64,000 nucleotides of DNA from Pseudomonadota bacterium. GTDB lineage: Bacteria > Pseudomonadota > Gammaproteobacteria > Burkholderiales > Burkholderiaceae_C. A program made the position numbers and the translations under genes. Within the stretch, counting starts at the first letter, position 1. Each line of letters opens with the position of its first letter. Location of the stretch: positions 1 through 64,000 of the forward strand of contig JAJZAQ010000011.1 of NCBI GenBank assembly GCA_021799355.1, in the 5' to 3' direction. Below the pieces are notes generated by a model that made no database searches, was not told the origin of the DNA, and saw nothing but the letters and a program-made list of their open reading frames with translations. Shown here in pieces: positions 1,994 to 12,263 of this stretch.

Positions 1994-2020
1994 AACCGCG
2001 CCTTACGGCGCGGTTTTTTT
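1994..2020 (+). terminator. Rho-independent terminator
   Basis: AACCGCGCC-TTAC-GGCGCGGTT followed by a T run (2014-2020). Confidence 0.85.
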
Positions 2021-2404
2021 GTCGATGCGCGTCACCCAGTCGGCGCCGTCGCGCTGCTCGACGGTGAAATGCACCTTGTCGCCGACTCGCAGCCCGTCGG
2101 CGAGTTTGGCGTCGGCCAGGCGGTAGTTCATGGTCATCGGCCCCATGCCCAGCGCGGGAATCGGGCCGTGGCGCAGGGTGATTTTGCCGGCCTTGAGGTC
2201 GACGCGGCGCACTTCGCCGTCGGCTTCGGCCGTGTTCGCGGTGGTGCCGGCGGTGCCGGGCGTGCCCTGCATCATCGGCATGTGCTGCGCCATGCCTTCG
2301 GGGGTCGAGTGGTCGTGGTCGGCATGGCTGCCGGCGGCCCAGGCCGGGGCGGTGAGGGCGGCGGCGAGCAGCAGGGTGGTGACGGTCTGGCGGGTCGTAT
2401 TCAT
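2003..2404 (-). CDS. CusF-like periplasmic copper-binding protein
   Basis: Signal peptide, then VRRVDLKAGKITLRHGPIPALGMGPMTMNYRLAD, matching the CusF fold metal-binding pattern. ORF extends upstream to 2488; Met at 2404 chosen. Confidence 0.85.
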   Translation of the reverse strand: MNTTRQTVTTLLLAAALTAPAWAAGSHADHDHSTPEGMAQHMPMMQGTPGTAGTTANTAEADGEVRRVDLKAGKITLRHGPIPALGMGPMTMNYRLADAKLADGLRVGDKVHFTVEQRDGADWVTRIDKKTAP

Positions 2405-2484
2405 TGGTTTCTCCTTGCGGCTGAGTCGGACAGAAAAAAGTCGGTTGCAGCGGGGGCGGCTCTGAGGACGGGTGTCGGCACGGC

Positions 2485-3927
2485 TCAATGGCCGTGGTGC
2501 GCGCCGGGCTTTTGCACCTGTAGGGTCTGCGGTGCGGCGGCGGGCGCGGACGCGCCGCCGGACGGGGCTGACGTTGGTGCCGGGGCATGCGGGTCACGTG
2601 CCGCGGCAGGCGCCAGCGCTGCATCGACCGCGCGCGCCTGCGTGCCGGCGGGCATCGCATACCAGCCGAACGCGTCCAACGTCGCCCAGGCGAGTTGATC
2701 CGGGGTCTGCGCGGCCAGCTCGGGCAGGCGGTCGCGCACCTTGAGCACGCTGAACATGCCGCCCATTTCGATCGCGCCGTAGGGGCCGCGGCCGGTCATC
2801 ATCGGCAGGGTGTTGTCGGGCAGCGGCATGTCCATTTCGGCCATCTCCGCCATGCCGCTCGACCCCATCGCCATGTAATCAGGCAGCAGCTTTTGCAGCG
2901 CCGGGGTGAGGTCGTCCTGCTGCACGCCGATCATCGTCGGCACGCTGTGGCCCATCGCATTCATGGTGTGGTGCGCCTTGTGGCAGTGGAAGGCCCAGTC
3001 GCCCGGGTTGTCGGCGACGAACTCGATCGCGCGCATCTGGCCGACGGCCACGTCCACCGTCACCTCGGGCCAGCGCGCGGTCTTGGGCACCCAGCCGCCG
3101 TCGGTGCCGGCGACTTCGAACACATGGCCGTGCAGGTGGATCGGGTGGTTGGTCATCGTCAGGTTGCCGATGCGGATGCGCACCCGCTCGCCGGTCTGCG
3201 CCACCAGCGGGGCGATGCCGGGAAACGCTCGGCTGTTCCACGTCCACAGGTTGAAGTCCAGCATGGTGTTGACCCTGGGGACACTGGCACCGGGGTCGAT
3301 GTCGTAGGCGTTGATGAGGAAGGCGTAGTCGCGCTGCACGGCCATCTGCCGCGGGTTCTTGGGGTGAACGATGAACAGCCCCATCGCGCCCATCGCCATC
3401 TGCACCATCTCATCGGCGTGCGGGTGGTACATGAAGGTGCCGCTTTTGTTCAGCACGAACTCATAGACGTAGGTCTGACCGGGCTTGATCTGCGGCTGCG
3501 TCAGCCCGCCGACCCCGTCCATGCCGTTGGGCAGCAGGATGCCGTGCCAGTGCACCGTGGTGTGCTCGGGCAGCTTGTTGGTGACGAACAGCCGCACGCG
3601 ATCGCCCTCGACGGCTTCGATGGTCGGCCCGGGGCTGGAGCCGTTGTAGCCCCACAGCCGGGCGACCATGCCGGGGGCGATTTCGCGCTCCACGGGCTCG
3701 GCGACCAAGTGGAATTCCTTGACGCCGTTGTTCATACGAAACGGCAGGCTCCAGCCGTTGAGCGTGACGACGGGGTTGTACGGGCGGCCGCTGCCAGGGT
3801 GCAGCGGCGGTGCGGTGTCGGCGGCGGCGCGATGGTGCGGCTCGGGCGCGACGGCCAGCGCGGCGCGGCTGGCCGCTCCGGCGGCGAGCAGCCCGGCGGC
3901 GGCGAGAAAGTTGCGGCGGGTATTCAT
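2485..3927 (-). CDS. Multicopper oxidase family protein
   Basis: All four copper motifs visible: HWHG, YHPHADE, HPIHLHGH, HCHKAHHTMNAM. Tat/Sec-like N-terminus (NTRRNFLAAAGLL). Confidence 0.92.
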   Translation of the reverse strand: MNTRRNFLAAAGLLAAGAASRAALAVAPEPHHRAAADTAPPLHPGSGRPYNPVVTLNGWSLPFRMNNGVKEFHLVAEPVEREIAPGMVARLWGYNGSSPGPTIEAVEGDRVRLFVTNKLPEHTTVHWHGILLPNGMDGVGGLTQPQIKPGQTYVYEFVLNKSGTFMYHPHADEMVQMAMGAMGLFIVHPKNPRQMAVQRDYAFLINAYDIDPGASVPRVNTMLDFNLWTWNSRAFPGIAPLVAQTGERVRIRIGNLTMTNHPIHLHGHVFEVAGTDGGWVPKTARWPEVTVDVAVGQMRAIEFVADNPGDWAFHCHKAHHTMNAMGHSVPTMIGVQQDDLTPALQKLLPDYMAMGSSGMAEMAEMDMPLPDNTLPMMTGRGPYGAIEMGGMFSVLKVRDRLPELAAQTPDQLAWATLDAFGWYAMPAGTQARAVDAALAPAAARDPHAPAPTSAPSGGASAPAAAPQTLQVQKPGAHHGH

Positions 3928-3942
3928 GGCGAGGTCCAGCAA

Positions 3943-5364
3943 TCAATGCCCGGCTGCGGCGGTGGGCAGCGCGCCAGCGGGCAGGTCGGGGGAAGAAGTC
4001 GTGGCAGAGGGCAGTCCGAGGCGGGCGTCGTCCCACGCCAGTTGCGCGAGCCACGCGTCACGTTGCGCGGCCAGCGCCGCGCGCACGGCTTGCACCTGCG
4101 TCTGCGCGGCGGCGACCAGCTCGAAGGTGCCGATCAGCATGCCGTTGTAGCGAAGCTGGCTCTGGTCGAGCACCGTCTGCGCCAGCGGCAGCAGTTGCGC
4201 ACGCGCGGTCTGCCAGGTCTGCAGCGCCTGCACGCGCCGCGCCTGCGCCTCGCGCAATTGCGACGCAGCGGCGCGCGCGGTGGCGATGGCGCGCGAGCGT
4301 GCGGCCAGCAGCGCGTCGGCAGCGGCGCTGCGGCGCGCGTCGCCGAGGTCGAACAGCGGCAGGGTGATCGCCAGACTCGGCCCCTGCTGCGGCGCGGCGT
4401 CGCTGTAGGTGTTGCGGGTGTAGCCAAGCTCGATGTGCTCGACCGCACTGCTTGCGCGCGTCAGCCCGGCGGACTGCGCAGCCGCTTCCACCTCCGCCTG
4501 CGCCAGCTGCACGTCCAGCCGCTGCTCGAGCGCGGACTGCAGCGGCACCGCGGCGGCGGGCGGGTCGGGCAGACGGTCGGGCAGCTTGAGCTGCGCCGAC
4601 TGCTCGCTGTTCAAGCCGAGTGCGCGCACCAGCGCCTCGCGCGCGGCCAGCGCGGCGAGCTGGTCGCGCTGCTGCGCGACTTGCGCGTCGGTGGCGAACA
4701 GCGCCTGCCGCGCCGCGTCGAGCGCGGTGAAGTTGCCCGCGCTTTGCATGCGCCGTGCCAGTTCGGCGGTGGCCTGCGCCGCGGCGACGGTGTCGGCGTC
4801 GTAAGCGGCGAGCTGCTGCGCCGCCACCGCGCGCACCCAGGCGGTGCGCGCCGCGCTGGCCGCAGCCAGCACGTCGCGGATCAGCGCCAGGCGCACGCGC
4901 TGCTGCTGCGCGGCGTTGAGGTTCTGGCGCGTCGGCAGGGTGAGCCAGTCGAGCAGGCCGAAGGCAATGCCGCGGCTGATTTCCAGCGCGTCGCCCTGGG
5001 TCAGCCGCTCCAGCGTCAGCACCGGGTTGGACGGACGCGCGGCGGCGGTGGCGCGCGCCGAATCGGCCGCGGCCTGCGCCAGCAGCGCCTGCACCGCCGG
5101 GCTGCCGAGCAGCGCGATGCGCACCGCGTCGTCGGCGGAAAGGGGATGGGCGAGCAGCGCGTCGATCTGCTGCTGCGCGGACTGGGCGGCGGCGGGGTCG
5201 CGCCAGAGCTCGACCGGGGCGCCGGCGTGCTGGCGCGCGGCGTCGTCGGCGGCTTGCAGCGTTTGCTGGGTCTGCAGCGGCGCGCAACCGGCAAGCAGGG
5301 CCAGCAACGCCAGCGCGGCAGTCGCCCGGCGGCGCGGCCGCGGGGAAAGTGAAACCGAGGGCAT
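3943..5364 (-). CDS. TolC family outer membrane efflux protein (lipoprotein)
   Basis: Lipobox LLALLAGCAPL; coiled-coil TolC-like repeats; linked to the copper genes. Confidence 0.85.
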   Translation of the reverse strand: MPSVSLSPRPRRRATAALALLALLAGCAPLQTQQTLQAADDAARQHAGAPVELWRDPAAAQSAQQQIDALLAHPLSADDAVRIALLGSPAVQALLAQAAADSARATAAARPSNPVLTLERLTQGDALEISRGIAFGLLDWLTLPTRQNLNAAQQQRVRLALIRDVLAAASAARTAWVRAVAAQQLAAYDADTVAAAQATAELARRMQSAGNFTALDAARQALFATDAQVAQQRDQLAALAAREALVRALGLNSEQSAQLKLPDRLPDPPAAAVPLQSALEQRLDVQLAQAEVEAAAQSAGLTRASSAVEHIELGYTRNTYSDAAPQQGPSLAITLPLFDLGDARRSAAADALLAARSRAIATARAAASQLREAQARRVQALQTWQTARAQLLPLAQTVLDQSQLRYNGMLIGTFELVAAAQTQVQAVRAALAAQRDAWLAQLAWDDARLGLPSATTSSPDLPAGALPTAAAGH

Positions 5365-5518
5365 GCGAATTCCTCACGATCGAATGGCGGTGCCCGATCC
5401 TGCGGATGAGGGGGCGGGCAACGGAGGCCGCGGCGGCGCGCAGCGCGCGCAAAGCCGCGAACGGAGGCGCGCCAAGCAGCGCGCCAGCCGCGCACGAGCG
5501 GCGCGGCCGATCGGGGAA

Positions 5519-5905
5519 TCAGCCTCGGGGTGGGCGACGCTCGGCGCGCGGGTCAGCGTCGAGCCAGTGCGCGCCGGCAGCCAGCGGGCAGGGATGCAGC
5601 ACCGCCGTGCCGGCAGCGAGAAGCAGCGCCGGCGGCTCGGCCAGCGCTAAGTGACAGACCACACAATGCGGGTGCGGGTCGTCGGCGGGGGTGGTGTCGG
5701 CAGCGTGATGCGCCGGGTTGCCGGCGGCGATGCCAGCGTCAGCCCGGTGCATCGGGCAGCCCTCGTCGGCGGTTTTGGCGGCGGCCGGTGCGGCCGCTGT
5801 CACCGCCGCGCAATCGCCGCCGAGCACCATGCTCGCCTGCGCCCAACCGCGCAGCGGCAGCAGCACCAGCAGGGCGATGAGCACGGAACGAAGCAGGCGA
5901 GACAT
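5519..5905 (-). CDS. DUF2946-like small secreted/membrane protein
   Basis: Signal-like N-terminus plus HPHCVVCHLAL near a second hydrophobic segment; context of copper genes. Confidence 0.55.
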   Translation of the reverse strand: MSRLLRSVLIALLVLLPLRGWAQASMVLGGDCAAVTAAAPAAAKTADEGCPMHRADAGIAAGNPAHHAADTTPADDPHPHCVVCHLALAEPPALLLAAGTAVLHPCPLAAGAHWLDADPRAERRPPRG

Positions 5906-6032
5906 GCGACAAAGTGTAGCAGCGATGCGGCCATCGCCCGTCCCCCGGCTGGCGGCGATGTCAGGAGTCTGGCGCTGCAGGCCTGGCGCCTTGCCGCGCC
6001 GAAGCCGCGATTTTTGCTGGAACTTTTGTCCG

Positions 6033-6059
6033 TTAGCACTCTCTACTTGCGAGTGCTAA
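6033..6059 (+). promoter_or_regulatory. CIRCE element (HrcA operator)
   Basis: TTAGCACTC-TCTACTTGC-GAGTGCTAA, an exact match to consensus TTAGCACTC-N9-GAGTGCTAA. Confidence 0.95.
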
Positions 6060-6087
6060 GATGAACACTATATTGGAGGACTTGACG

Positions 6088-6996
6088 ATGACCCAAACCG
6101 CGACAGCCGCGCTTGCCCTGCGCCCGGCGCAGATGGACGGGGCGTTTCCTCTGACCCTGCCCAGCCTGGGCAATCTGGACGCCTACATTTCGGCGGTCAA
6201 CCGCCTGCCGCTGCTCAGCGCCGAGGAGGAAACCCGGTTGGCGCGGCGCTGGCGCGAGCACGGCGACAAGGACGCGGCCGGTAAGCTGGTGCTGTCGCAC
6301 CTGCGGCTGGTGGTGTCCACCGCGCGGCAGTACCTGGGCTACGGCCTACCGCACGCCGACCTGATCCAGGAAGGCAATATCGGGCTGATGAAGGCGGTCA
6401 AGCGCTTCGATCCGGCGCACGGCGTGCGGCTGGTGAGCTACGCGCTGCACTGGATCAAGGCCGAAATCCACGAATACATCCTGCGCAACTGGCGGTTGGT
6501 CAAGGTGGCGACGACCAAGGCGCAGCGCAAGCTGTTTTTCAATCTGCGGTCGATGAAAACCGCCGAAGCCGGGATGAACGACGCGCAGATCGACGCCATG
6601 GCCGACGCGCTGGGGGTCAAGCGCGAGGACGTGATCGAGATGGAAAGCCGCATGGGCGGCGCCGACATCGCGCTGGACCCGACGACCGAGGACGGCGAAG
6701 AGAATTTCGCCCCCATCGCCTACCTGGCCGACACCACGCAGGAGCCGGTGGCCGTGCTCGAAGCGCGCAGCCACGACCGGCTGCAGGTCGAGGGTCTGGA
6801 AAGCGCACTGGAGCAGCTCGATCCGCGCAGCCGAGCCATCGTCGAGCAGCGTTGGCTGCAGGTGAAGGACGACGGCAGCGGCGGCAAGACGCTGCACGAA
6901 CTGGCTGCCGAATACGGTGTGTCCGCCGAGCGCATCCGCCAGATCGAGGTCGCGGCGATGAAAAAAATGCGCAAGACGCTGGCTGCCTTTGCCTGA
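6088..6996 (+). CDS. rpoH: RNA polymerase heat-shock sigma factor RpoH
   Basis: LVLSHLRLVVSTARQYLGYGLPHADLIQEGNIGLMKAVKRFDP and C-terminal region 4 (YGVSAERIRQIEVAAMKKMRK). ATG 6088 chosen because GGAGGA lies at 6075-6080. Confidence 0.95.
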   Translation: MTQTATAALALRPAQMDGAFPLTLPSLGNLDAYISAVNRLPLLSAEEETRLARRWREHGDKDAAGKLVLSHLRLVVSTARQYLGYGLPHADLIQEGNIGLMKAVKRFDPAHGVRLVSYALHWIKAEIHEYILRNWRLVKVATTKAQRKLFFNLRSMKTAEAGMNDAQIDAMADALGVKREDVIEMESRMGGADIALDPTTEDGEENFAPIAYLADTTQEPVAVLEARSHDRLQVEGLESALEQLDPRSRAIVEQRWLQVKDDGSGGKTLHELAAEYGVSAERIRQIEVAAMKKMRKTLAAFA

Positions 6997-7123: not shown

Positions 7124-9196
7124 TCATGGCCGCCAGCTGCGCACTGCCCGGCGCAGCGCCGTCCATTCGACGCGGCGCTGCCCGTCAGGGCCAGCAGGGG
7201 CGTAGCGCCAGCGTTCCAGCCGCAAGAGCAGATCGGCCGCTGCCTGCGCCGCACGCGGTGGCAGCGTGGCCGGTCGGTGGGCGTCGCGCAGCCGTGCGGC
7301 GAGCTGGCGTGGCGCGGTGCCGGCGGTGCTGTCGATGCCGGCGCGGTGCAGTTTGTGCCGCAGTTGGCCGTACACCCGCTGCCACGCATCGGTGCGGCGG
7401 CGCTCGATGGCCAGCAGGCCGCCGAGGACGGCAGTGGCCGCCAGCAGCGCGCCAATCGCCAGCGCCGCCAGGGTTGCGGCGTCGGGCTGGTGCACGCCGA
7501 GCCGGCGCAGCAGATCGTGCTGCCGCTGGCTGCCGTAATTGAGCACCCACTGGTTCCAGGCGTTGTTCAGCGCGTCCCAGCGGTTGCGCAGCTGCAGCAG
7601 CAAGGCGGTATCGCGCGGCCCCAGCGCAGCCAGGCCGAGCAGCGGTTCGCGCGCGGCCAGCGTGGCGCCGCTGCGGTCCACCCGCGACGGATCGACCGCC
7701 GCGGTGGGATCGGCGCGCACCCAACCCTGCTCGGGCAGCCAGTATTCGGCCCAGGCGTGGGCGTCGCTCTGCCGCACCACCCAGGTGCCATCGACCGGGT
7801 TGTACCGTCCGCCCTGGTAGCCGGTGACGATGCGCGCGGGAATGCCCGCGGCGCGCATGACGACGACGAAAGCCTGTGCATAGTGCTCGCAGAACCCGGC
7901 GCGGCGGTCGAACAAAAACGTATCGACGCCATCGCGCTGCCCGTAAGTGCCGGGATCGAGGGTGTAGCGGAACGGCTGGGTGCGAAACATGTGCAGCAGC
8001 GCCTGCGCGACGAACGCGCCACCCTGACCCGCGGCGCGTGCCTGCGCCGCCAGCTCGCGACCGAGGGCGACGCTGCGCGGGTCATACCCGGCGGGCAGCG
8101 CCTCGTCGGCGCGCAGCGCGGCGTTCATGCGCTGCGGCCCGTAGCGGAACTGCGGCGAGGACTCCACGGTGTAGCGCGCCAGATGATCCAGCGGCCGGCC
8201 GACGACCAGCTGCAGGTCGGGCAGCCATTGCACCAGGTAGCCGTCGATTTTCGGTGCCGCCGCCGGGGCGTCCAGCGCGAAGACGAAGGTCTGCTGCGTT
8301 GGCTGCAGCGTCACGGTGTAGCGCACCGGCGGCGCGGTGAGCTGCAAGTCCGGCGGCGGGGTGGGGCTGGCGCGTTCGCGCTGCCGCGGGTCGGCGCGCC
8401 ACACGCCGTCGTCGAAGCGGCTGAGCACCGGGCCGCGCCAGTACAGCAGACGGTCGGGAGGTCGCGGGCCGTCGAATACCACGCGAAACACCACCGAATC
8501 GTCACGCGCCAGTTGCGCGATCTGCCCCGGCGACATGCTGGACGACAAGCCGCTGACGGCCTGTGTGCTGCTCTGCGGCAGCGCCCACAGCGGCGCGGAA
8601 AAGCGCGGAAACACGACGAACAGCACGACCATCGCCGGGGTGCCCAGCGCCATCATGCGCAGCGCGGTGACGAGCAGCTGCCTGAGCGGCGGGCGACCGG
8701 CGGGCAGATTGGCGTTGATCAGCGCGGCGAGCATCCCCCACGTGGCCAGCAGCATGAGCAGCGCCGTGCCCAGCGACTGGGAAAACAGAAAATTCGCCGC
8801 GATGGTGAAAAAACCGAGGAAAAACAGCACATAGGTGTCGCGCCGGGAGCGTGTTTCCAGCGCCTTGAGGCCAAACAGCACGCACAGCAGCGTCACCCCG
8901 GCGTCGCGCCCGACGACGGTATGAAAGCTCCACAGCGTCAGCGCCAGCGCCCCCAGCAGCACCAGCACCAGCACGGCGCGCCGCGGCAACGGCGCGCCAC
9001 GCCAGGCCAGCAGCGCGCGCCAGCCCAGCAGCGCCAGCACCAGCACGGCGCTCCATGCCGGCAAAGCCGGCAGCAGCGGCAGCATGAGCAGCAGCGCCAC
9101 GCCCAGCAGAAACAGGGTGTCGCGCGCATCGCGCGGCAACTCGCTGGCGCGCCGTATCCAGCGGCCCAGACGGTGAGGCGGGACGACGGCGGTCAC
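7124..9196 (-). CDS. TgpA-like protein: DUF3488 and transglutaminase-like domain
   Basis: N-terminal transmembrane helices, then RAGFCEHYAQAFVVVMRAAGIPARIVTGYQGG and DAHAWAEYW. GTG start overlaps the upstream stop (GTGA). Confidence 0.9.
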   Translation of the reverse strand: MTAVVPPHRLGRWIRRASELPRDARDTLFLLGVALLLMLPLLPALPAWSAVLVLALLGWRALLAWRGAPLPRRAVLVLVLLGALALTLWSFHTVVGRDAGVTLLCVLFGLKALETRSRRDTYVLFFLGFFTIAANFLFSQSLGTALLMLLATWGMLAALINANLPAGRPPLRQLLVTALRMMALGTPAMVVLFVVFPRFSAPLWALPQSSTQAVSGLSSSMSPGQIAQLARDDSVVFRVVFDGPRPPDRLLYWRGPVLSRFDDGVWRADPRQRERASPTPPPDLQLTAPPVRYTVTLQPTQQTFVFALDAPAAAPKIDGYLVQWLPDLQLVVGRPLDHLARYTVESSPQFRYGPQRMNAALRADEALPAGYDPRSVALGRELAAQARAAGQGGAFVAQALLHMFRTQPFRYTLDPGTYGQRDGVDTFLFDRRAGFCEHYAQAFVVVMRAAGIPARIVTGYQGGRYNPVDGTWVVRQSDAHAWAEYWLPEQGWVRADPTAAVDPSRVDRSGATLAAREPLLGLAALGPRDTALLLQLRNRWDALNNAWNQWVLNYGSQRQHDLLRRLGVHQPDAATLAALAIGALLAATAVLGGLLAIERRRTDAWQRVYGQLRHKLHRAGIDSTAGTAPRQLAARLRDAHRPATLPPRAAQAAADLLLRLERWRYAPAGPDGQRRVEWTALRRAVRSWRP

Positions 9197-10284
9197 GCCG
9201 CCCCCTTGCTGCGCGCCTGCGCGCCGGTGGCAAGCAGCGGCCCGGGATACAGCGCCAGCAGCCGCAGGCAGCGCTGGCGGTGCGCCGCGCCGGTGGCCAC
9301 GGTCACGCGCTGCGCCCCGAGCTGCAGGCCATAGGGCACGCCGGCACGGTCGGCCGCCAGCACCCAGGCGCACAGCCGCGACAGCCGCGCCTCGGTGTCC
9401 AGCCGCGCCGGCAGCGCGGCGAAGTCCAGCCAGAGCTCGGCCTGTGCCAGCGGCTGCGCGCTGTCGCGGCTGGCGAGCTCGTCGCTGTGCGCGAGTTTTT
9501 TCCACAGTACCTGGCGCGGTGGGTCACCGCTGCGGTAAGGGCGCACGCCGTCGGCCTCGCCACCGCCGCGTGCCAGCGCCGGCCCCTTGCCCGGCGTGGG
9601 GCGCGCCGGCGGTAGCGGGGGCGCGGGGTGCTCGGCCGCCGGTAACACCAGCAGTTCGCCGTGCGGCTGCCAGCGGCTCCACGCGGTCCAGACGCCCAGC
9701 GGGTACTGGCTTTCCACGGTCAGCCGCGGCCAGGGCAGCAGGCCGCGCTGCGGTGGGGTCCAGTGCAGCGTGACCTGGGTGTCGCCGCCGCGGGGGCAGT
9801 CGGTCCAGACCCAGTCGCCGACCGGGTGCGGCCGGCCTGGCGCGGCGGGGCGGGCGGCGTCGGGCCGCAGCCCCAGCCCCCAGCGATCGCGCGTGCCAGC
9901 CTGCAGCAGCAGGCTCAGTGCGGCGGTCTGCCCCTGGTGCATCAGGCCGTCGCCTGCGCGTGCGCTGAGCGTCAGCCCGCGCAGATTGTGGTGCGTGACG
10001 TGCATGGCCATCAGCGCGCTGCCGGCGAGCAAAAAAGTCAGCAGATAGCCGAGGTTGAGCTGGTAGTTGATGCTCAGCACCAGTAGCACCAGCACCAGCG
10101 CGGCGAACATCCAGCCAGCTCGGGTGGGCAGGATGTAGACGTTGCGGTGCGTCAGCCGGGTGCTGCTGCCTGCGGGATGGCGCGCCGCCGCCCAGGCGTC
10201 GAAGCGGCGCGCCAGCGCCACGCGCAGCCGGCGGCGCGGCGTCGCTGCCGGGCGGGACGACATCGAATCGGCCGGGGAAGACAT
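9193..10284 (-). CDS. DUF58 domain-containing protein
   Basis: YILPTRAGWMFAALVLVLLVLSINYQLNLGYLLTFLLAG and GEADGVRPYRSGDPPRQVLWKKLAHSDELASR. Confidence 0.9.
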   Translation of the reverse strand: MSSPADSMSSRPAATPRRRLRVALARRFDAWAAARHPAGSSTRLTHRNVYILPTRAGWMFAALVLVLLVLSINYQLNLGYLLTFLLAGSALMAMHVTHHNLRGLTLSARAGDGLMHQGQTAALSLLLQAGTRDRWGLGLRPDAARPAAPGRPHPVGDWVWTDCPRGGDTQVTLHWTPPQRGLLPWPRLTVESQYPLGVWTAWSRWQPHGELLVLPAAEHPAPPLPPARPTPGKGPALARGGGEADGVRPYRSGDPPRQVLWKKLAHSDELASRDSAQPLAQAELWLDFAALPARLDTEARLSRLCAWVLAADRAGVPYGLQLGAQRVTVATGAAHRQRCLRLLALYPGPLLATGAQARSKGAA

Positions 10285-10314: not shown

Positions 10315-11256
10315 CTACACCGCGACCTGCTCCAGCAGTGCCTGTGCGGCCTGCAGCGATGCGCTGCGGTTGACCACCGGGCTGTCCACGGTGCGCAGGC
10401 GATGGCCGACGACGGCAGGGAACACCCGTTGCACGTCGTCGGGGATGAGGTAATCGCGCTGCTGCAACAGCGCCCACGCGCGGGCGGCGCGCAGCAGCGC
10501 AAGACCGGCACGCGGGCTCAGACCTTCGGCAAACCAGCGGCCGTTGCGGGTGTGCAGCAGCAGGTCTTGCACGTAGTCGAGTAGGGCGGGCGCGGCATGC
10601 ACGGTCTGCACTTGGCGCTGCAGCTGCAGCAGCGAACCGGCATCGACCAGCGGCTGCAGTTCGGCGATGAGTTCGCGCCGGTCGCGGCCTTCGAGCAGCG
10701 CGCGCTCCGCGGCGCGGCTGGGATAGCCCAGCGAGATGCAGAGCAAGAAGCGGTCGAGCTGCGACTCGGGTAGCGCGTAGGTGCCGAGCTGGTCGAAGGG
10801 GTTTTGCGTGGCGATGACAAAAAACGGAGTGGGCAGCGCGCGCGTCTGGCCGTCGACGCTGACCTGGCGTTCCTCCATCGCTTCGAGCAGCGCGCTCTGC
10901 ACCTTCGGCCCGGCGCGGTTGATTTCATCGGCCAGCAGCACCTGGGCGAACACCGGGCCGGGGTGGAAGATGAATTCGCTGCGGTTGCGGTCGAACACCG
11001 ACACGCCCAGCAGATCGCCGGGCATCAGGTCGGCGGTGAACTGCGCGCGGGCGTAACGCAGCCCGAGCGCAGCGGCTAGGGCGTGCGCCAACGTGGTCTT
11101 GCCCACGCCGGGCAGGTCTTCGATGAGCAGATGGCCGCCTGCCAGCAGGCAGCACACCGCCAGTTCGAGTTGTTCGCGTTTGCCTTCGATGATGGTGTCG
11201 AGCTGATCGATCAGCCGGGGCAGCAGGGCAGGGTTCACGGCAGGCCAGGTGGGCAA
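10315..11256 (-). CDS. MoxR family AAA ATPase
   Basis: Walker A LPGVGKTT, Walker B VLLADEINRAGPKVQSALLEAMEERQVSVDG; downstream DUF58 and TgpA partners. Confidence 0.93.
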   Translation of the reverse strand: MPTWPAVNPALLPRLIDQLDTIIEGKREQLELAVCCLLAGGHLLIEDLPGVGKTTLAHALAAALGLRYARAQFTADLMPGDLLGVSVFDRNRSEFIFHPGPVFAQVLLADEINRAGPKVQSALLEAMEERQVSVDGQTRALPTPFFVIATQNPFDQLGTYALPESQLDRFLLCISLGYPSRAAERALLEGRDRRELIAELQPLVDAGSLLQLQRQVQTVHAAPALLDYVQDLLLHTRNGRWFAEGLSPRAGLALLRAARAWALLQQRDYLIPDDVQRVFPAVVGHRLRTVDSPVVNRSASLQAAQALLEQVAV

Positions 11257-11330: not shown

Positions 11331-12263
11331 ATGACCACCGGCTTTTACACCCACGCCGACTGCACCCTGCACGAAATGGGTGCCGATCACCCGGAGTGCC
11401 CGCAGCGCCTGGCAGCGATCGAAGACCGGCTGATCGCCGCGCAAATCGCCCCCTGGCTGGAGCGCCACGACGACGCCCCGCCTGCCACGCTCGAAGCGCT
11501 GGAGCGGGCGCATTCGGCGCTGTATGTCAGCGGGCTGAGGCAGCGCGGCCACTTCGAGCAGGGCTACGAGTGGATCGACGCGGACACGCTGATGAACCCG
11601 TTTACCTGGCAGGCGGCCATCCGCGCCGCCGGGGTGGCCATCAGCGCCACCGATGCGGTGATCGACGGCCATCTGCAGAATGCGTTTTGCTCCATCCGCC
11701 CGCCCGGCCACCATGCCACGCGGGAGCGGGCGATGGGGTTCTGTTTTCTCGGCAATACCGCCATCGCCGCGCGCCACGCGCTGGACGTGCGCGGTCTGGA
11801 GCGCGTGGCCATCGTCGATTTCGACGTGCACCATGGCAACGGCACCGAAGACATCATCCGCGGCGACGCGCGCGTGCTGATGGTGAGCTTTTTCCAGCAC
11901 CCGTTCTACCCCTACACCCCGATCGAGACCGCCGACAATCTGCTCAATGTGCCGGTTCCGGCCTACACCCGCGGCGACGTCATCCGCCGCATCGTCAGCG
12001 AACAGTGGCTGCCGCGGCTGCGCGCGTTCGCCCCGCAGATGCTGTTCATCAGCGCCGGTTTCGACGCCCACCGCGAAGACGACATGGGGCAGATGGGGCT
12101 GGTCGAAGCCGATTACGCCTGGATCACCCGGCAGCTCGTCGACTTCGCCGCGGTGCAGTGCGAAGGCCGCATCGTCTCCTGTCTGGAAGGCGGATACAAC
12201 CTCAGCGCGCTGGGCCGCAGCGTGGCCGAGCATGTGCGCGTGCTCGCCGGGCTGGACGTCTGA
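11331..12263 (+). CDS. Histone deacetylase family protein
   Basis: CSIRPPGHHATRERAMGFCFLGNTAIAA; VDFDVHHGNGTEDI; SAGFDAHREDDMGQM. Confidence 0.93.
   Translation: MTTGFYTHADCTLHEMGADHPECPQRLAAIEDRLIAAQIAPWLERHDDAPPATLEALERAHSALYVSGLRQRGHFEQGYEWIDADTLMNPFTWQAAIRAAGVAISATDAVIDGHLQNAFCSIRPPGHHATRERAMGFCFLGNTAIAARHALDVRGLERVAIVDFDVHHGNGTEDIIRGDARVLMVSFFQHPFYPYTPIETADNLLNVPVPAYTRGDVIRRIVSEQWLPRLRAFAPQMLFISAGFDAHREDDMGQMGLVEADYAWITRQLVDFAAVQCEGRIVSCLEGGYNLSALGRSVAEHVRVLAGLDV

Follow-up and report, generated by a model that had tools for sequence, protein, structure and literature searches.

An exact CIRCE element interleaved with the predicted promoters of rpoH and its co-occurrence with hrcA

Is the gene for the heat-shock sigma factor under the control of the HrcA repressor and, if so, how is the operator placed relative to the promoter that it would control? 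The question is raised by a 27-mer, TTAGCACTC-TCTACTTGC-GAGTGCTAA, located 5′ of rpoH at 6033–6059 of a 64,000-nt window (the whole stretch of DNA analyzed) from a Burkholderiales genome. The 27-mer is a perfect CIRCE (18/18), for which no strand is assigned. Its left arm (6033–6041) and right arm (6051–6059) are separated by a 9-nt loop (6042–6050), giving the inverted repeat on which HrcA/CIRCE control is recognized, and the element is a predicted HrcA operator. Between its last base and the start codon of rpoH (ATG, 6088) lie 28 nt, exactly as the original prediction described. The gene itself (6088–6996, plus strand) encodes a 302-aa protein identified as sigma32 by the NCBIfam equivalog TIGR02392 (404 bits versus a cut-off of 323) and by NF005143 (411 bits), and its Shine-Dalgarno sequence, GGAGG (6075–6079, plus strand, recognized by sequence), stands 8 nt before the ATG.

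In itself, the CIRCE at rpoH is an ordinary one. It is the sole match in the window, and none of 100 shuffles yielded another; since, in addition, the same gene carries CIRCE across Burkholderiales, the probability that the match is due to chance is negligible.

The predicted HrcA regulon

The original prediction named a genome-wide CIRCE scan and a search for hrcA as ways to check HrcA control. In the whole genome (2.89 Mb, completeness of 98.5%), the scan, which allowed up to three mismatches, returned two sites: the one at rpoH (0 mismatches) and one 5′ of groES, at groESL (C90:15802–15828, 1 mismatch). The latter lies directly behind a sigma32-like promoter, CTTGAAA-N12-CCCTAT. A single hrcA copy was found at C20:14703–15359 (TIGR00331, 310 bits versus a cut-off of 197; PF01628, 220 bits). 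The same scan detected no CIRCE at hrcA itself at up to three mismatches; autorepression by HrcA is therefore not predicted for this genome, and the predicted HrcA regulon consists of groESL and rpoH only. In locus L004 (5390–7411), hrcA is divergent from an NAD-kinase–like open reading frame (ORF) and, judged by sequence, lies beside recN-like and rapZ-like ORFs. The genome also encodes one RpoE above the family cut-off; the region upstream of this rpoE contains no clear sigmaE-type promoter motif.

Being a palindrome between two divergent genes, the CIRCE could in principle serve the minus-strand gene at 5519–5905 rather than rpoH. We consider this highly improbable, since the upstream neighbor varies between species while the element stays at rpoH, and since the promoter motifs described below face rpoH. 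In other species, the genes upstream of rpoH, classified by sequence, are pirin-like, PAS/GGDEF, LysR-type, ftsX, histidine kinase, and rsmH genes. Such variability of neighbors assigns the CIRCE to rpoH, and control of the divergent gene was rejected on this ground.

As for the genes around rpoH in the window, it is adjoined by a copper-related run on the minus strand (2003–5905), which comprises a small CusF-like secreted protein (2003–2488, by sequence only), a multicopper oxidase (2485–3942), an outer membrane efflux protein (3943–5364), and the small Cys/His-rich protein encoded at 5519–5905, which gave no family hit. Genes for a transglutaminase/TgpA-like protein (7124–9505), a DUF58-like protein (9193–10284), and a MoxR-like ATPase (10315–11256), all named by sequence, and for a histone-deacetylase–family protein (11331–12263, plus strand, PF00850) are located on the other side of rpoH.

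Co-occurrence of hrcA and the rpoH CIRCE

To estimate how widespread the arrangement is, we compared 81 loci, namely, the window and 80 named RpoH loci, mostly from Burkholderiales. CIRCE matching at 16 to 18 of 18 positions was present upstream of rpoH in 79 of them, and one of the two exceptions is truncated by a contig end. In a family survey, 295 of 301 genomes contained at least one CIRCE at one mismatch or fewer; most contained exactly two. The Burkholderiales sample was drawn evenly over 49 families and included 80 genomes with an hrcA call (27 order-level genomes stood outside this count). CIRCE was found at rpoH in all 70 hrcA-positive genomes (68 at 15/18 or better and two degenerate, at 14/18) versus none of the 10 hrcA-negative ones; among shuffled upstream regions, 0.02% reach a score of 15 or higher. 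When 74 other gammaproteobacterial families were each represented by a single genome, the site was present in 49/53 hrcA-positive versus 3/21 hrcA-negative genomes. In both samples, the site is thus lost with hrcA, although, the sampled genomes being related, Fisher P values for these comparisons overstate independence even with families drawn evenly.

Individual genomes were also inspected. In G333 (L197), hrcA is not detectable and the CIRCE at rpoH has decayed to 13/18, while the sigmaE-type GGAACTT and TC are intact; in G376 (L185), which belongs to the same genus, hrcA is present and the CIRCE is perfect. The two constitute a natural loss pair. Nine further hrcA-negative gammaproteobacteria contained no CIRCE at rpoH, and a sigmaE-like match was kept in six of them. 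Three genomes of the other families (G488, G421, and G472; loci L243, L295, and L245) gave no HrcA hit yet carry a 15–17/18 CIRCE at rpoH, which could reflect recent loss of hrcA or incomplete assemblies with missing contigs. In G437, one rpoH copy has a CIRCE (17/18) and the other does not. Outside the class, 15 genomes from the same phylum, presumably those of Alphaproteobacteria, were inspected; hrcA is present in 14, and none has a CIRCE at rpoH.

The arrangement had been described beforehand as conserved but uncommon wiring. It is indeed conserved; uncommon it is not, since it occurs in nearly all Burkholderiales with hrcA and in the majority of the gammaproteobacterial families that are hrcA-positive. 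Overall, these results suggest that, where beta- and gammaproteobacteria have kept hrcA, rpoH is usually under a double lock of sigmaE and, above it, HrcA, and that the operator vanishes together with the repressor; this is a concrete prediction, which common laboratory strains such as Cupriavidus or Comamonas would allow to be tested. The proposal that HrcA controls rpoH is well supported by the presence of hrcA, the genome-wide CIRCE scan, and the co-occurrence; binding and repression themselves we infer.

Predicted promoters overlapping the operator

A predicted sigmaE (RpoE/ECF02) −35 element, GGAACTT (6019–6025, plus strand), matching at 7/7 positions, precedes the CIRCE. The predicted −10 element, TCTAC (6042–6046, plus strand), follows it at a distance of 16 nt and occupies positions 1–5 of the CIRCE loop. 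The resulting GGAACTT-N16-TCTAC (6019–6046) has the RpoE/ECF02 layout with its 15- to 17-nt spacing and runs through the CIRCE; the fifth base of the −10 is C, where A is usual. Such a −35/−10 pair appeared in 2 of 20,000 trials with shuffled upstream sequence. Against the sigmaE reading speak the imperfect −10, the small number of GGAACTT-N15–17-TCNNA sites genome-wide (only three), and the lack of an evident promoter of this type upstream of rpoE. A −35 matching at 5/7 positions or better was present within 34 nt upstream of the CIRCE at 81 of 95 order-wide rpoH sites, and 43 of 79 sites in the named set reached a sigmaE motif score expected in ~2.6% of shuffles.

Across 173 rpoH sites, the −35 element stands 5, 7, 8, 9, or 10 nt before the CIRCE, while the −35/−10 spacing remains constant at 15 to 17 nt. 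Where the −35 ends 5 nt before the CIRCE, TC..A is found at loop positions 3–7 (26/29 sites); in the register of the window, with the −35 ending 7 nt before the CIRCE, TC occupies loop positions 1–2 at all eight sites. When the distance is 8 to 10 nt, the TC of the arm itself serves, and loop positions 1–3 read TNA at 45 of 63 sites, compared to 3/42 rpoH sites without the −35 and 0/25 groE loops. Loci from Ralstonia, Cupriavidus, and Paraburkholderia have their −10 directly before the CIRCE. Since the −10 shifts with the −35 in register, the CIRCE loop, whose sequence is free where only a CIRCE is needed, holds promoter information in the case of rpoH. From the motifs, the CIRCE thus appears to lie within the rpoH core promoter, with the −10 located in the loop or using the TC of the arm. 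No −35 at 5/7 or better is recognizable at 42 of the 173 sites, approximately one quarter, and the sigmaE part is therefore not universal.

A second promoter may be embedded in the CIRCE. The third base past the element is T at 172/173 rpoH sites versus 2/25 groE sites, and NAT follows the CIRCE directly at 152/173 versus 1/25 sites. HrcA probably does not require this T, which is rare at groE operators. Together with the right arm, the rpoH-specific T forms an extended −10, TGCTAANAT (TGC-TAANAT across sites). In the window, the possible sigma70 extended −10, TGC-TAAGAT (6054–6062, plus strand; hexamer, 4/6), consists of CIRCE right-arm bases and the three bases that follow, and a possible −35, TTAGCA (6033–6038, plus strand; 4/6), is located 18 nt before TAAGAT, inside the left arm. 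In other families, the left-arm variant TTGGCA, which matches the sigma70 −35 at 5/6 positions, is frequent. A sigma70-type promoter embedded in the CIRCE is probably the simplest reading of the conserved T, less certain than the sigmaE promoter. Another candidate from a generic sigma70 scan, TTGCGA-N16-TATATT (6047–6074), was rejected, as transcription from it would begin at the Shine-Dalgarno sequence or downstream of it.

Could the CIRCE then be an operator at a sigma70 promoter, with the sigmaE match in this genome incidental? The near-invariant T (172/173), which is seen also where no sigmaE −35 is visible, speaks for this possibility, as do the imperfect TCTAC of the window and the lack of GGAACTT in many Roseateles/Rubrivivax/Methylibium-type loci. 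On the other hand, the −35 of the window is a 7/7 match exactly 16 nt from the TC, a configuration matched in 2 of 20,000 shuffles; the −35/−10 spacing is kept across registers in many families; and SigE drives rpoH in Bordetella (PMC3490749). On balance, we regard an incidental sigmaE match as unlikely.

The location of the promoters also bears on the suggestion, made in the original prediction, that the element may sit in the 5′ UTR. This is probably wrong: the CIRCE overlaps the −35, spacer, and −10 of both predicted promoters, which would leave no more than the right half of the element in the transcript. An RNA hairpin acting on mRNA stability or translation could form from the inverted repeat if some promoter is located upstream of the CIRCE, and an effect of CIRCE in the 5′ leader on stability is known from Bacillus. 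With the predicted promoters, however, the left arm falls outside the transcript; the downstream sequence folds no better than its shuffles (z = 0.11), the Rfam search revealed no RNA element, and loss of the CIRCE along with hrcA fits a protein operator. We therefore consider a role as RNA very unlikely. A separate observation concerns the leader at 6073–6157, whose total folding energy is ordinary (z = 0.11): UUUCCUC in the rpoH coding region is predicted to base-pair with the Shine-Dalgarno stretch, UUGGAGGA, in a thermometer-like manner.

Proposed control of rpoH and comparison with known systems

Taken together, the sequence evidence makes it quite probable that 6033–6059 is a functional HrcA operator in the rpoH core promoter, interleaved with sigmaE and probably sigma70 promoters. 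The operator, the promoter motifs, hrcA, rpoE, the coupling of −35 and −10, and the co-occurrence are seen in the sequences; HrcA binding and repression, the GroE link, sigma usage, and start sites are our inference. With HrcA bound to the CIRCE, the spacer, the two −10 elements, and the region of the sigmaE start would be occluded, and HrcA is therefore expected to repress by keeping RNA polymerase out; sigmaE-driven and probably sigma70-driven transcription of rpoH would both be blocked. In other bacteria, HrcA activity depends on GroE and is lost on heat. Heat or misfolded protein would thus draw GroE off HrcA and inactivate it, and rpoH and groESL, the only CIRCE genes here, would be derepressed together. 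RpoH would then transcribe chaperone genes, including groESL from its sigma32-like promoter, restoring GroE and reactivating HrcA. In such a circuit, rpoH would be transcribed when sigmaE activity (envelope stress) or basal sigma70 activity meets low HrcA activity.

Within the same genome, groESL (L002/L135) shares operator and repressor with rpoH. Unlike the rpoH CIRCE, the groESL CIRCE lies behind a sigma32-like −10 (CCCTATAA) and spans the start site, and the motifs that mark the loop and 3′ flank at rpoH are missing at groE. Permina and Gelfand, in their 2003 work on beta-, gamma-, and epsilonproteobacterial heat-shock regulons, probably list CIRCE at some betaproteobacterial rpoH genes; theirs is probably the comparative-genomics report alluded to in the original prediction.

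For rpoH of Geobacter sulfurreducens, a CIRCE has already been predicted (Genome Biol 2004, PMC545781). As in our genome, a perfect CIRCE precedes rpoH there (position −51) and hrcA is present; unlike here, hrcA-grpE-dnaKJ also carries CIRCE, and the phylum is different. An overlap of CIRCE with a sigmaE promoter is not described in that paper, which cites the work of Permina and Gelfand (doi 10.1159/000077248) as its reference 45. The SigE-dependent rpoH (fam) promoter of Bordetella bronchiseptica is, like the one predicted here, an ECF02-type promoter upstream of rpoH and is transcribed by SigE in vitro (PMC3490749); HrcA is mentioned zero times in that paper. In the open-access literature, we found no report joining the rpoH CIRCE with a SigE promoter and none on the co-occurrence of hrcA with the rpoH CIRCE. 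The fusion of CIRCE with the promoter, and its breadth, may be new.

The sigmaE-dependent rpoHP3 of Escherichia coli is likewise an ECF02-type promoter upstream of rpoH, in an organism that, unlike ours, lacks HrcA and served as a control in the hrcA search. In the textbook heat-shock circuit, that of E. coli, HrcA does not act on rpoH. The ancestor of beta- and gammaproteobacteria may have had rpoH promoter and HrcA operator fused in one composite element, with the sigmaE −10 in the loop or arm of the CIRCE and the sigma70 −10 completed by its right arm, the HrcA-free E. coli-type rpoH being derived after loss of hrcA; we give this scenario an even chance. If it is true, such an element would make the transcription of rpoH an AND-NOT gate, with envelope stress and the state of the cytosolic chaperones as its inputs.
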